Of a stretch of 64,000 nt of DNA, positions 4,440 through 20,548 are shown piece by piece; within the stretch, counting starts at the first letter, position 1, and each line of letters begins with the position of its first letter. Below the pieces are notes generated by a model. The model searched no databases. It was not told where the DNA came from and worked only from the letters and a program-made list of their open reading frames with translations. Where the stretch lies: positions 18,993 to 82,992 of the forward strand of contig NZ_SORI01000006.1 in assembly GCF_004366815.1 (NCBI RefSeq), read 5' to 3'. This DNA comes from Aminivibrio pyruvatiphilus. Its GTDB lineage: Bacteria > Synergistota > Synergistia > Synergistales > Aminobacteriaceae. The translations under genes and the position numbers were made by a program.

Positions 4440-4550
4440 ATTCAGCCTCGATCATCTTCCAGGAAAACCTGCAGGAATTGGCACCGTTCAGCATTTCGCT
4501 GAGGTTGCCGCGGCTTCGCAGGGCCTGTCCCTCCGCCGCTCCGGATGAAT
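4440..4550 (-). promoter_or_regulatory. SAM-I (S-box) riboswitch upstream of metQNI
   Basis: The minus strand carries the S-box core almost exactly: GCGGCGGAGGGACAGGCCC, then GAAGCC, CGGCAACC and GGTGCCAATTCCTGCAGG. The outer helix P1 is formed by ATTCA (4546-4550) with TGAAT (4440-4444). Known S-box elements bind S-adenosylmethionine and repress methionine genes. The terminator at 4391-4429 is its expression platform, and metQNI lies downstream. Confidence 0.95.
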
Positions 4551-4576
4551 CGATTCGGTATTAAGGTATGGCGGAG

Positions 4577-12714: not shown

Positions 12715-13401
12715 TCAGCGTTTGCCGAAGGTGTTGTCGTACCGCCTCTTTTTGCTGATGGAAACGCCGTACTTCACCAGCCCCGAAGCGATGATGAGGG
12801 CGCAGATGACGCCGTCCAGCACCGGGACTCCCAGTTCCTTCTCCATTCTCTTGTCGAGGCCGGCGAAACCGGCACAGCCGAGGACCAGCACTTCCGCCAT
12901 GTCCTCCTCCACTGCCCGCCGCCCCGCCGCGATGAGCCGCTCCGCCTCGTCCGCCCCCTGCTCGATGATTGCGGGACGGACGGAAGCCATGTCCCTCGAT
13001 AGGCCGTACTTGTCGACGAGGGCTTTCTTGTTTGGAACCGTTCGCTCCACGGGGGCAATCACGGAAAAGCTGTGCCCCAGCATGGTGGCCATTTTCATGG
13101 AGGCTTCCGCGATGCCCACCACCGGTTTGACGGTGATTTCCTTCATGAGGTCGATGTTCGGGTCGCCGTGGCAGGCGATAATAAACGCGTCGAAGCCGGC
13201 TTCGTTCTCCCGCAGAAGCCGGACCATTCCCGGGGCGGCCATGGCGTGATCCTCGTAGGTAGCGATGAAGGGCGAGGTTCCCGGCGTGGGAACCGTGACA
13301 ACCTCCATATCCTCTCCGGCGAAGGCGGCGGCGTTCCGGTGGATCGCCCCGGTCATCTCCTCGCTGCTGTTGGGGTTGATGATGAGGATCCGGGGCTTCA
13401 T
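12715..13401 (-). CDS. Asp/Glu/hydantoin racemase family protein
   Basis: A 228-residue protein of the cofactor-independent two-cysteine racemase family, which includes hydantoin racemase HyuE, allantoin racemase HpxA and maleate isomerase. The N-terminal motif ILIINPNSSEEMT is characteristic of the hydantoin/allantoin branch. The two catalytic cysteines are visible in the segments DAFIIACHGDP and VLVLGCAGFAG. Its ATG overlaps the stop of the upstream cyclic amidase (ATGA), indicating translational coupling. Racemisation of the ring compound before hydrolysis is the expected role. Confidence 0.88.
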   Translation of the reverse strand: MKPRILIINPNSSEEMTGAIHRNAAAFAGEDMEVVTVPTPGTSPFIATYEDHAMAAPGMVRLLRENEAGFDAFIIACHGDPNIDLMKEITVKPVVGIAEASMKMATMLGHSFSVIAPVERTVPNKKALVDKYGLSRDMASVRPAIIEQGADEAERLIAAGRRAVEEDMAEVLVLGCAGFAGLDKRMEKELGVPVLDGVICALIIASGLVKYGVSISKKRRYDNTFGKR

Positions 13402-14801
13402 GCGGTCCTCCCCGAACCCCAGCCGGGCAGCATCACTTTCCCCCAGCCCTCGGCGGAGTCGTCGATCACCCGGTTCTTCATGATGATCCTGCCCCGGACT
13501 ATGGTGTGCAGGGGCTTCCCGACGAGGCGGAACCCGTTGTACATGGGGGACGTGTCCCTGGAGTGGGTCACGAAATCCTTGTTGTTCACCGTGTATTCGT
13601 TTTTCATGTCCGCGATGACGTAGTCGGCGTCCCCGCCTACCCGGATGGCACCCTTGCGGGGCCAGAGGCCGAAGACCCGGGCGGGATTCTCGCAGAGAAG
13701 CTCCACCATGCGCCTCATGGAAAGCTTGCCGTCCCGCACGGCGGTGAGCATGAGGGGCAGGGTCATCTCAATGCAGGCAGGGCCGGCGGCGGCGGTGAAA
13801 ATGTCCTTCATTCCCTTCTCCTTCTCCGAGACGAGGAAGGGACCATGGTCGCTGCCGATGAAATCCACCGATCCGTCGTTGACATAATCCCAGAGCTTCT
13901 CCATGGACTCCCTGCTGCGGAGAGGCGGGTTCCCCTTCGCATAGGGGCCGTACTTGTCAATCATTTCTTCCGTGAGGAAAAGATAGTGGGGGCAGGTCTC
14001 CAGGTAGACGTCCATGCCGTCCAGCTTCGCCCGCTTCACCAGCTCCGCCGCCTCGGGGGTGGAGATGTGGGCGAAACTCACCCTGGTACCGGTTTCCTTC
14101 GCGAACATAAGGAGCTTGGCCACAGTCTCGATCTCCGTAATGGGAGGGCGGGACTTGTAGTGGTATTCGAAGCCCACCTTCCCCTCGGCGCGGAACTGCC
14201 GGATCAGACGCTGGATGATGTCGTTGTTCTCCGCGTGGATCGTCAGGATGAGCCCCGTCTTCGCAACAGCCCGGAAGCCGTCGAGCATCTCCCCGTCGTT
14301 TGCCATGGTGAGCCCGCGGAATTCCTCGTCCCGGCCTTCGGGTGCCTCGTGGAGGAACGTCTTGAAGGCCACGATCCCCTCTTTGGCCACCTTCTCCACT
14401 TCATCGGGGAACTCGGCGCCGGCGGCGCCGAAAAAGGCATAATCCACCAGTGCCTGGGGAGTGGCCACCCGGACCCTGTTCCTGAGTATTTCCGGAGAAT
14501 AAGGAGGAGGAGACGAAATAGGGTGTTCCAGGAAGCAGGTCACGCCTCCCGCGGCAGCCGCCTTCGTTTCGGTGACGAAGGTTCCCCGCTCCCGGTGTCC
14601 CGGGTCCCGCACATGGACATGGGTATCCACTACCCCCGGCATCACCGGGTTGCCTTCGGCGTCGAGCACCGTTTCCGCTTCCGGAAGATACCTGTCTTCG
14701 CAGATCGCCACCGTCTTGCCGTCCTTTACCGCCACTCCGCCTTCAAAAAACTCTCCATTGACAAAAATCTGACCGTTTCGGATCACCAGATCGGCTTTCA
14801 C
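13398..14801 (-). CDS. Cyclic amidase (allantoinase/hydantoinase/dihydroorotase family), copy 2
   Basis: A 467-residue metal-dependent amidohydrolase. The start is the GTG at 14801, with AGGGAGG 8 bases upstream inside the end of copy 1; the long open frame back to 15311 runs antisense-free through copy 1 but is not its own protein. The binuclear metal site is visible: DTHVHVRDPG, the carboxylated-Lys segment FKTFL, HAEN, FAHIST and the Asp of GSDHGPF. These hydrolyse cyclic imides and ureides such as allantoin, hydantoins and dihydropyrimidines. It is a paralogue of the gene just upstream and is coupled to the racemase gene. Confidence 0.88.
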   Translation of the reverse strand: MKADLVIRNGQIFVNGEFFEGGVAVKDGKTVAICEDRYLPEAETVLDAEGNPVMPGVVDTHVHVRDPGHRERGTFVTETKAAAAGGVTCFLEHPISSPPPYSPEILRNRVRVATPQALVDYAFFGAAGAEFPDEVEKVAKEGIVAFKTFLHEAPEGRDEEFRGLTMANDGEMLDGFRAVAKTGLILTIHAENNDIIQRLIRQFRAEGKVGFEYHYKSRPPITEIETVAKLLMFAKETGTRVSFAHISTPEAAELVKRAKLDGMDVYLETCPHYLFLTEEMIDKYGPYAKGNPPLRSRESMEKLWDYVNDGSVDFIGSDHGPFLVSEKEKGMKDIFTAAAGPACIEMTLPLMLTAVRDGKLSMRRMVELLCENPARVFGLWPRKGAIRVGGDADYVIADMKNEYTVNNKDFVTHSRDTSPMYNGFRLVGKPLHTIVRGRIIMKNRVIDDSAEGWGKVMLPGWGSGRTA

Positions 14802-14806
14802 ATTAC

Positions 14807-16219
14807 CTACCTCCCTTGAAATGCACCTTCCGAAGAAGAACGATAAAAAAGATCCCGCCCCCGGCCGGAGGCCTGAGGAAGAGTTCCGTCCCTTGAAAAA
14901 ACAATTCCGCCCCTGACCATGGTCATCCCCACCACGCCGAACAGGCGCCGTCCCTCGTACAGCCTGGCAATACCCTTCCCCGCCGTTTTCATCCTTGAAG
15001 CCCTCACGAGAAACGGTTCGTGAAGGTTCACCGCAACGAGGTCGGCGTCTGACCCCACGGAGATGGTTCCCTTTTGCGGGTACAGGCCGAAGATCCTGGC
15101 GGCGTTTGTGGAGAGAAGATCCACCATGCGCCGGAGGGAGAGCTTTCTTTCCCGAACGGCGGTGACGAAAAGGGGAAGCCGTTCCTCGAATCCCGTGGAT
15201 CCCGCCGGGGCTGCAAAAATATCCTCCGCTCCCGGCTCCTTTTCGGAGAGGAGAAAGGGACCGTGGTCGCTTCCGATATAATCCACCGTGCCGTTTCTCA
15301 CGTACTTCCACAGCGCTTCGCTGTCAGCCTTTTTCCTGATGGGAGGATTGAACTTGGCGAAGGGCCCGAGTGGAGCGGCGGACTCCTCGTCGCAGAAGAG
15401 GTACTGGGGGCATGTTTCCGCATATACGGGCCTTCCGCCAGCCTTTTCCCTCCGTATGAGCTCCATGGCCTCCGGGGTGGAGACGTGGCAGATGCCGAGC
15501 CGGACACCCGTCGACCGGGCAAAGGCGAGGACCTTCGCCACCGCGGAAACTTCAGCAAGAGGGGGCCTCGCCCTTCCGTGGGCGGCCAGATCCCTGCCGC
15601 CTCCTGCCCTCACATCCCGGGTGAAACTCCTGATGAGGTCGTCGTTTTCAGCATGGACCGCGCACAGTTTCCCTGTCTTCGCCACCGCTTCGAAGATTTC
15701 GAGAAGATTCCCGTCCCCTTCGGCGCAGGTTCCCTCGAATTCCCCTTCCCTTCCCGCATGGGGCCTGAAGAGAAAGGTTTTGAAGGCCGCCACGCCCCGC
15801 CCGGCCAGCCCGGCGATATGCTCCGGGCGGTTTCCTGCGGCCCCGTAGAAGCCGAAATCCACCGATGAACGCTCCGAGGCGCAGCGGCTCCTGTTTTCCA
15901 GAATATCCACGGTGTACTGGGGAGGGCTCGAAATCGGCATCTCCAGTATGGTGGTAATCCCTCCGGCGGCGGCAGCGGCCGATTCGGTGGCAAAATCTCC
16001 CCTCTCCCGCCTGCCGGGGTCCCGGACGTGGACATGGGTGTCCACACCCCCGGGAAACAGGGCGGCACCCTGGAGATCAATCTCGCTTTTTGCGGGCGGA
16101 AGAAAGGGAGTTCCGCCCATGGCCGCTATTTTGCCGTCAGAAATGGCCACTCCTCCCTCGACCAGGCCGCCGGGGGTGAAAACCATGCAGTTTCTGAGAA
16201 CCACGTCAGCCCTGTTCAC
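14807..16219 (-). CDS. Cyclic amidase (allantoinase/hydantoinase/dihydroorotase family), copy 1
   Basis: A 470-residue paralogue of the next gene with the same metal motifs: DTHVHVRDPGRRERG, FKTFLF, HAEND, CHVSTPEA and GSDHGPF. Its ATG overlaps the stop of the IclR gene by four bases, and copy 2 starts 5 bases after its stop. The two copies keep all catalytic residues but differ widely elsewhere, for example in the loops around residues 125-160. They may therefore have different side-chain or stereochemical preference, or form a mixed oligomer. The substrate is not determined. Confidence 0.86.
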   Translation of the reverse strand: MNRADVVLRNCMVFTPGGLVEGGVAISDGKIAAMGGTPFLPPAKSEIDLQGAALFPGGVDTHVHVRDPGRRERGDFATESAAAAAGGITTILEMPISSPPQYTVDILENRSRCASERSSVDFGFYGAAGNRPEHIAGLAGRGVAAFKTFLFRPHAGREGEFEGTCAEGDGNLLEIFEAVAKTGKLCAVHAENDDLIRSFTRDVRAGGGRDLAAHGRARPPLAEVSAVAKVLAFARSTGVRLGICHVSTPEAMELIRREKAGGRPVYAETCPQYLFCDEESAAPLGPFAKFNPPIRKKADSEALWKYVRNGTVDYIGSDHGPFLLSEKEPGAEDIFAAPAGSTGFEERLPLFVTAVRERKLSLRRMVDLLSTNAARIFGLYPQKGTISVGSDADLVAVNLHEPFLVRASRMKTAGKGIARLYEGRRLFGVVGMTMVRGGIVFSRDGTLPQASGRGRDLFYRSSSEGAFQGR

Positions 16220-19345: not shown

Positions 19346-19987
19346 ATGAACGAGTTTACCCCCTGGCACAACGAGGCTCTTGGAAAAAAGGTCGTGGAAT
19401 CCCTGAAGAAAAACGGCTTTGAAGCGGAGTACTGCCCCTCCGCCGCCGAGGCCGCAGAAAAGATCCTGGCGCTTATTCCCGAATCGGCGTCGGTGGGCTT
19501 CGGCGGTTCCTGGACGGTAAAGGCCCTTGGAATCCAGGAGAAACTGGCCGGCAAGGGAAACACGATCCTCGACCACGGCGCTCCCGGCCTCTCCAACGAG
19601 GAGCGGCAGGACGTCAGGAAAAAGCAGCTCACCTGCGACGTGTTCCTCTCCGGAACGAACGCAGTGACTCTCGACGGAAAGCTCGTCAACACCGACGGGA
19701 ACGGGAACAGGGTGGCGGCCATGATCTTCGGCCCCGGCAAGGTCATCGTCGTTCTCGGGACGAACAAGATCGTGAAAGACCTTGACGCCGCCGAGGAGCG
19801 CATCCAGATGGTCGCCGCCCCCGTCAACAACAAGAGAATCGGCCTGCCCAACCCCTGCACCCAGACCGGGCTCTGCATGAACTGCCAGACCGAGACGAGG
19901 ATCTGCAACGTCACCACCATCATCAGCAAGCGCCCGAGATCCACGCCCTTCCACGTATTCGTCGTCGGGGAAGAACTGGGCTTCTAG
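19346..19987 (+). CDS. LUD-domain protein (LutC/YkgG-like) with a C-terminal Cys cluster
   Basis: A 213-residue single-domain LUD (formerly DUF162) protein. The family motifs are VGFGGSWTV near residue 52, SGTNAVTLDGKLVNTDGNGNR near 110 and VIVVLGTNKIVKDLDAA near 134. Four cysteines in the pattern C-x5-C-x2-C-x6-C around residue 170 could hold a metal or an iron-sulfur cluster. LUD proteins take part in L-lactate oxidation as LutBC, but stand-alone copies like this one are common in anaerobes and have no settled function. AAAGGAGG precedes the ATG. It has no lutA/lutB neighbours. Confidence 0.8.
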   Translation: MNEFTPWHNEALGKKVVESLKKNGFEAEYCPSAAEAAEKILALIPESASVGFGGSWTVKALGIQEKLAGKGNTILDHGAPGLSNEERQDVRKKQLTCDVFLSGTNAVTLDGKLVNTDGNGNRVAAMIFGPGKVIVVLGTNKIVKDLDAAEERIQMVAAPVNNKRIGLPNPCTQTGLCMNCQTETRICNVTTIISKRPRSTPFHVFVVGEELGF

Positions 19988-20065: not shown

Positions 20066-20479
20066 CTATTCCGCTTCCCCTTCCATCTCTTCGAGGATAG
20101 CGGCGGCGTCTTCGACAAGGGCAGGACACCGCGTACGGAAGAGGTTCAGTTCCTTCGCCTTTGCCAGCCCCTCCGGGGTGCTCGTGTCAAGCCCGAGGAG
20201 ATCGCGGCAGAGAAGAAATCCGTTCCGCTCCCGAAACCGCCTGGTGAACTCCTCCACCTTCCCGTACACCGCCGCTCTCCCTGCCGCCGTGACGCACTCT
20301 TCGGACCCGTAGCGAAGCCCCAGGACCATAACGGCACCCGCCACGGCGCCGCAGGTGTCTCCCGTGCGCATTCCGCTTGCGAAACCGGAGCCGATCCGGA
20401 CCGCCGTTTCCCTCGATATTCCCAGTCCTTTCCCGCAGGCCGCGAGAACGGCCTGCGCTCAGGCAAAGCCGTCAAGCAT
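20066..20479 (-). CDS. C-GCAxxG-C-C family protein with in-frame UGA (probable selenoprotein)
   Basis: Read from the ATG at 20479 (AGGAAG 11 bases upstream), the frame gives MLDGFA, then TGA (20459-20461), then AQAVLAACGKGLG and continues without a stop for 130 codons to 20066, 137 residues in all. The UGA sits exactly where this family has its first conserved cysteine (the CAQAVL motif). The rest of the family pattern is intact: GDTCGAVAGAVMVLGLRYG, then a later Cys in FLLCRDLLG and RTRCP. Immediately after the UGA is a perfect 8-bp hairpin (20434-20457). Selenocysteine-containing members of this family are known. A conventional gene call starts at 20371 and loses the first third. Likely a small redox protein. 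A nonsense mutation is the alternative. Confidence 0.75.
20434..20457 (-). promoter_or_regulatory. Candidate bacterial SECIS hairpin
   Basis: On the minus strand CGCAGGCC/GGCCUGCG form a perfect 8-bp stem around the loop GUUCUCGC, starting 2 bases after the in-frame UGA. Bacterial SECIS elements are hairpins just 3' of the UGA with G (often GU) at the start of the apical loop; this loop begins GU. The loop lies closer to the UGA than in the E. coli fdhF element, so recognition by SelB is inferred. Confidence 0.5.
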
Positions 20480-20548
20480 GAGTTGTGGAGCTTCCTGTAC
20501 AGAACTCACAAAAACACCTCCCCGGAAAAATGGCCGAAATACGAAAAG

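Follow-up and report, generated by a model that had tools for sequence, protein, structure and literature searches.

Proteins of the C_GCAxxG_C_C family are catalogued as containing predicted selenoproteins, under the names 'form 1' and 'form 2' (PMC13188914, Table 1), and the family is also listed as a selenoprotein in PMC9312934. Synergistota has itself been placed among the phyla richest in selenoproteins (PMC13188914). Our search of the literature on the C_GCAxxG_C_C family found no functional study, only expression notes.

Here we describe a gene for a small, cysteine-rich protein of this family in a stretch of 64,000 nucleotides from the anaerobe Aminivibrio pyruvatiphilus, referred to below as the window. 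Like the catalogued C-GCAxxG-C-C (seleno)proteins (TIGR01909 / PF09719), its predicted product consists of the same domain over the whole length and has a single selenocysteine (Sec). It differs from the catalogued forms in belonging to one Synergistaceae genus, where it is nested among Cys proteins and apparently reflects a separate change. The selenoprotein family is already known; what the locus offers is a further member, a revised start codon and a more convincing candidate for the SECIS element.

A family member hidden from ordinary gene calling

The features of the gene are as follows.

20066..20509, minus strand: predicted full gene of the C_GCAxxG_C_C selenoprotein, 147 aa, GTG start 20509-20507, TAG stop 20068-20066, TGA translated as Sec
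20517..20523, minus strand: putative ribosome-binding site GGGGAGG, 7 nt before the GTG
20459..20461, minus strand: in-frame UGA, predicted Sec17 (7th codon if counted from ATG 20479)
20066..20371, minus strand: truncated ORF, 101 aa, the product of ordinary ORF calling

The minus-strand frame that the first-pass annotation had traced from an ATG through a UGA to a normal stop is real: between 20479 and 20066 it is interrupted by a single TGA (20461-20459) before ending at the TAG. The start codon proposed there, ATG 20479 with its own ribosome site, has to be revised, since this ATG has no good ribosome site nearby and a better candidate, GTG 20509, stands ten codons upstream. The GGGGAGG before this GTG is the same in three genomes of the genus (G001, G002 and G003), the equivalent codon is ATG in the congener G001, and the Cys orthologues of two relatives outside the genus, G014 and G017, have starts colinear with it (MSAIQEASRLLLSGYACSQAV, MNRIHEASERFLKGYACSQAV). 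These observations suggest that GTG 20509 is probably the true start of a protein of 147 residues, which would begin MSSVQEAPQLMLDGFAUAQAVL and have Sec at residue 17.

Membership in the C-GCAxxG-C-C family, as originally proposed, is well founded. With TGA translated as Sec, the 137-aa form matches PF09719 with 106.6 bits (cut-off 27) and TIGR01909 with 81.8 bits (cut-off 47.4), both above the curated thresholds, and the NCBI name of the latter is 'C-GCAxxG-C-C family (seleno)protein'. Positions 17, 53, 101 and 128 are occupied by Cys (or Sec) in all members of both a narrow alignment (A1) and an alignment of 14 diverse members (A2), and the CGAxxG motif is present. Because selenocysteine would stand in place of a conserved cysteine, gene finders take the UGA for a stop. 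A plain ORF caller indeed reproduced the conventional start at 20371, and ordinary callers will mis-annotate the gene by cutting off residues 1-46 of 147, Sec17 at the first conserved position included.

Conservation of the UGA and its counterpart Cys codons

The UGA and the open frame around it are common to four genomes of the genus (G000, G001, G002 and G003). The gene is identical in G000 and G003, while in G001 and G002 it has about 91% protein identity and 89% DNA identity to the window; in G004, another genome of the same genus, no copy of the selenoprotein gene was seen. Single-base errors that turn TGC or TGT into TGA do happen in assemblies, but the same TGA in four separately assembled genomes, two of them this divergent, rules out such a misreading at 20459-20461 for practical purposes and leaves it a negligible probability.

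A genuine stop, leaving either a pseudogene or a short 101-aa protein from 20371, is what ordinary ORF calling yields and what UGA means in table 11. Against this reading, the codons that flank the UGA show coding evolution on both sides in three distinct species, and the UGA itself is invariant. Over the whole gene, third positions account for 32-37 of the 48-55 base differences per pair, and in the stretch 5' of the UGA at least half of the 4-6 differences per pair fall in third positions. Moreover, the short protein would miss the first conserved motif, and a well-placed ribosome site and start codon would be wasted. As the genome also encodes the selenocysteine machinery (see below), we consider a genuine stop highly improbable.

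The proposal that the UGA replaces the first conserved Cys of the family agrees with what is found in other genera. G014 and G017, the nearest relatives outside the genus, have TGT at this codon, and the column holds Cys in the other closest relatives too. In G017, from another Synergistaceae genus, the Cys gene is preceded by genes for an IclR-type regulator and an aminotransferase and followed by a LUD-domain gene; this gene order matches that of the window, except that G017 has one extra small ORF in between. The window gene and the G017 gene are thus, judging by sequence and gene order, a Sec/Cys orthologue pair. The extra ORF (G017 L085, 2325-2774) is Cys-rich, codes for 149 aa and lies between the aminotransferase gene and the Cys orthologue, a place where the window has no such ORF. 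The LUD-domain gene of the window (19346-19987, plus strand; PF02589, 170.5 bits) is convergent with the selenoprotein gene, keeps this synteny, and encodes a protein with a Cys-rich C-terminus (NPCTQTGLCMNCQTETRICN).

Selenocysteine machinery

A search of the genome for selA, selB, selC and selD, suggested by the first-pass annotation, recovered all four. The tRNA-Sec (selC) scores 74.5 bits (cut-off 47) and has the anticodon TCA according to ARAGORN; SelA scores 557.8 bits, SelB 341.5 bits (joined) and SelD 328.7 bits. On contig C4 selA adjoins selB; selD lies on C18 and has an in-frame TGA of its own. In-frame TGA codons are also present in two grdA genes of the genome.

The conserved UGA, the Cys of relatives and the complete machinery together make Sec insertion very likely, in support of the original reading, and we hold with high confidence that UGA 20461-20459 is decoded as Sec17. 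For translation of the UGA as tryptophan or another residue, through an altered code or a suppressor, we found no supporting point. The column contains only Cys or UGA among the sampled relatives, and tRNA-Sec and SelB are both encoded in the genome, so that the chance of such decoding appears vanishingly small.

Two overlapping hairpins downstream of the UGA

Downstream of the UGA two overlapping hairpins compete with each other.

20434..20457, minus strand: perfect hairpin described in the first-pass annotation, 20457-20448 paired with 20443-20434, competing with the proposed SECIS
20430..20448, minus strand: proposed SECIS hairpin UUCUCGC-GGCCU-GCGGGAA, apical loop from 17 nt after the UGA, GG first

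According to the published bSECIS model, the loop has 3-9 nt and the stem 4-16 bp, a G is found in the first two loop positions, the distance from the UGA is 16-37 nt and the energy is -7.5 kcal/mol or lower (PMC13188914). The perfect GC hairpin exists and is stable (-20.7 kcal/mol, z -3.3), but it begins 1 base after the UGA and not 2, as had been stated, and its assignment as the SECIS signal probably does not stand. Its loop, UCUC, follows the UGA at about 11 nt and has no G at positions 1-2, which breaks the model on both counts. In the congener G001 an A-C mismatch interrupts the stem, and folding prediction there gives the hairpin at 20448-20430 instead. This second hairpin satisfies all rules of the model, with a loop of 5 nt, a stem of 7 bp, GG first, a distance of 17 nt and an energy of -8.0 kcal/mol. 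The earlier remark that the hairpin sits nearer to the UGA than the E. coli consensus is true of the perfect hairpin, but the objection disappears with the 17-nt one.

The hairpin at 20448-20430 is identical in the three distinct species of the genus, and its seven codons form one of the two longest invariant runs in a gene in which 44% of the degenerate codons vary among these species. When synonymous codons were shuffled, 5-6% of the shuffles folded as well as this hairpin (p about 0.06, this gene alone) and about 8-10% also attained -7.5 kcal/mol. Since shuffles of a single gene give no better p than this, we placed the weight of evidence on a comparative test among relatives.

In isolation the perfect hairpin is the stabler structure, being the fold of lowest energy in both G000 and G002, and this could be taken to mean that it, and not the hairpin with the 17-nt spacing, signals Sec read-through. 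The mismatch in G001 argues otherwise, as does the retention of the other hairpin in relatives. In addition, a ribosome whose A site holds the UGA is expected to cover about the first dozen downstream bases. The 5' arm of the perfect hairpin would then sit within the ribosome, and because of this coverage the hairpin is probably melted when the UGA is reached. We therefore regard it as an improbable signal; the functional SECIS is probably the hairpin at 20448-20430. The case illustrates how a perfect hairpin right after a UGA can divert attention from the true SECIS.

Known elements are built in a comparable way. In selD of the same genome the SECIS loop also starts 17 nt after the UGA with G first, on a stem of different sequence. 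In E. coli fdhF, whose letters as used for the scan were confirmed in E. coli genomes, the same scan places a G-first loop 18 nt after the UGA; this loop, GGUC, has 4 nt where that of the window gene has 5, and the stem sequence is again another.

If the 20448-20430 assignment is correct, SelB and Sec-tRNA(Sec) would be recruited by a hairpin whose loop lies 17 nt downstream of UGA 20461-20459, and the codon would be read as Sec17 in a 147-residue, all-helical C_GCAxxG_C_C protein.

G-first hairpins among relatives

For the comparative test, relatives were taken from the phylum of Smithella sp. PtaU1.Bin162 and from the window genus, giving 46 genes with UGA and 28 with Cys at the column of the first conserved Cys. 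A hairpin of -4 kcal/mol or lower whose G-first loop lies 16-21 nt downstream of the codon was present in 37 of the 46 Sec genes and in 9 of the 28 Cys genes (Fisher p 5e-5, a value that overstates the case because the compared genes are related and not independent of phylogeny). Stem sequences vary and still pair: GC, CG, AU and UA pairs all occur at several positions, and at most stem positions there are at least three pair types. Covariation in these predicted hairpins is plain.

Thus, where the first-pass annotation had asked whether homologues carry Cys or UGA at this column, the answer is that four genomes of the genus have UGA, the nearest other genera have Cys, and 43 genes of the Smithella phylum, where Sec at the first Cys is common, again have UGA. 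The members of that phylum with Sec at the first Cys (L107, L114, L118, L121, L122, L124, L142-L150 and L152-L179) have the UGA at the same column as the window gene, within motifs such as FSUAQAV, NUAES, HUSQA and YUAQA, and, like it, a G-first hairpin, mostly 17-20 nt downstream. They differ from the window protein in sequence (<50% protein identity), and the hairpin sequence differs as well.

Three genes of this set deserve separate mention. The Cys genes L123 and L126 retain, 19 nt after the codon in question, a strong SECIS-like hairpin; in their close Sec sister, L124, that codon is UGA. As these Cys genes still have the hairpin of the Sec gene, the trio seems to record a recent switch between Sec and Cys, and the hairpin in L123 and L126 suggests a fossil or a ready-made SECIS.

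A few family members have a UGA elsewhere. In L181 (G449:C24), a member from Synergistota, it is at the second conserved Cys (HAUGIVTG) and not the first, which indicates that Sec can take the place of different Cys residues of the site. In L151 (G230:C30) and L180 (G043:C8) the in-frame TGA falls off the conserved Cys positions (EHUQAMK and FGGUMGIE, respectively), and these two are possibly errors or pseudogenes.

Evolution of Sec in the family

A tree of 74 proteins, computed with the Sec column excluded, places the window genus as a Sec group (support 99) within a nine-row group that otherwise has Cys (support 95). Overall, the supported branches force at least four changes between the Sec and Cys states. 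Since the Sec group of the window genus is nested among Cys proteins, its Sec probably goes back to a change of its own, distinct from those behind the large Sec groups of the Smithella phylum, the alternative being losses elsewhere.

Fold and possible function

The AlphaFold2 model of the protein is all-helical, with a mean pLDDT of 91.6. The candidate structural relative is 1h21, split-Soret cytochrome c of Desulfovibrio desulfuricans, whose Cys-bearing domain may share the fold and has a CGA-x-x-G motif. VIA-align superimposes the model on 1h21 with Z 12.7 over 134 residues at 22% identity, the next entry having 3.0, a score that helical proteins can reach through a common arrangement of helices. 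Foldseek against the PDB returned no match at E <0.001, and 1h21 was absent from its 10 matches. At the sequence level, a profile of the A2 alignment matches the 1h21 chain at E 0.0024 via the CGAxxG motif; searches of PDB sequences with the protein alone or with A1 gave nothing credible. The two proteins also differ: 1h21 has a haem domain that the window protein lacks, and no Sec is reported for it.

The 1h21 entry is titled 'A novel iron centre', and split-Soret cytochrome c reportedly holds a probable 2Fe-2S centre besides its haems. This likeness raises the prospect of a metal centre with a Sec ligand. In the window protein Sec17 would occupy the first of the four invariant cysteine positions (17, 53, 101 and 128) and would work with the other three. 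It could form a fast selenol/selenylsulfide centre, or it could serve as ligand in a metal centre of the split-Soret cytochrome c type. Taking the two forms jointly, with no firm preference for either, we consider a redox role for the protein likely. The narrower proposal by analogy, in which Sec17, Cys53, Cys101 and Cys128 would be the four ligands of an iron-sulfur or other metal centre, is rather unlikely, though worth stating. If it were true, bacteria would repeatedly swap S for Se in a cluster ligand of one family, creating natural Cys/Sec pairs. The family offers such pairs, among them syntenic orthologues in one bacterial family and the closely related L123/L124/L126 trio, which could be used to test how selenium alters an uncharacterised redox or metal site.

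Other features of the window

At gathering thresholds, Rfam found no SECIS and no tRNA in the whole window, its sole match being a SAM riboswitch (4449-4551, minus strand; RF00162, 87.4 bits). Two adjacent amidohydrolase genes (13398-14756 and 14807-16219, minus strand) have IclR-type regulators close by, and genes for a TRAP transporter binding protein and a 3-dehydro-L-gulonate 2-dehydrogenase lie near the pair (13398-16219). The amidohydrolase/IclR/TRAP region looks like a catabolic cluster.
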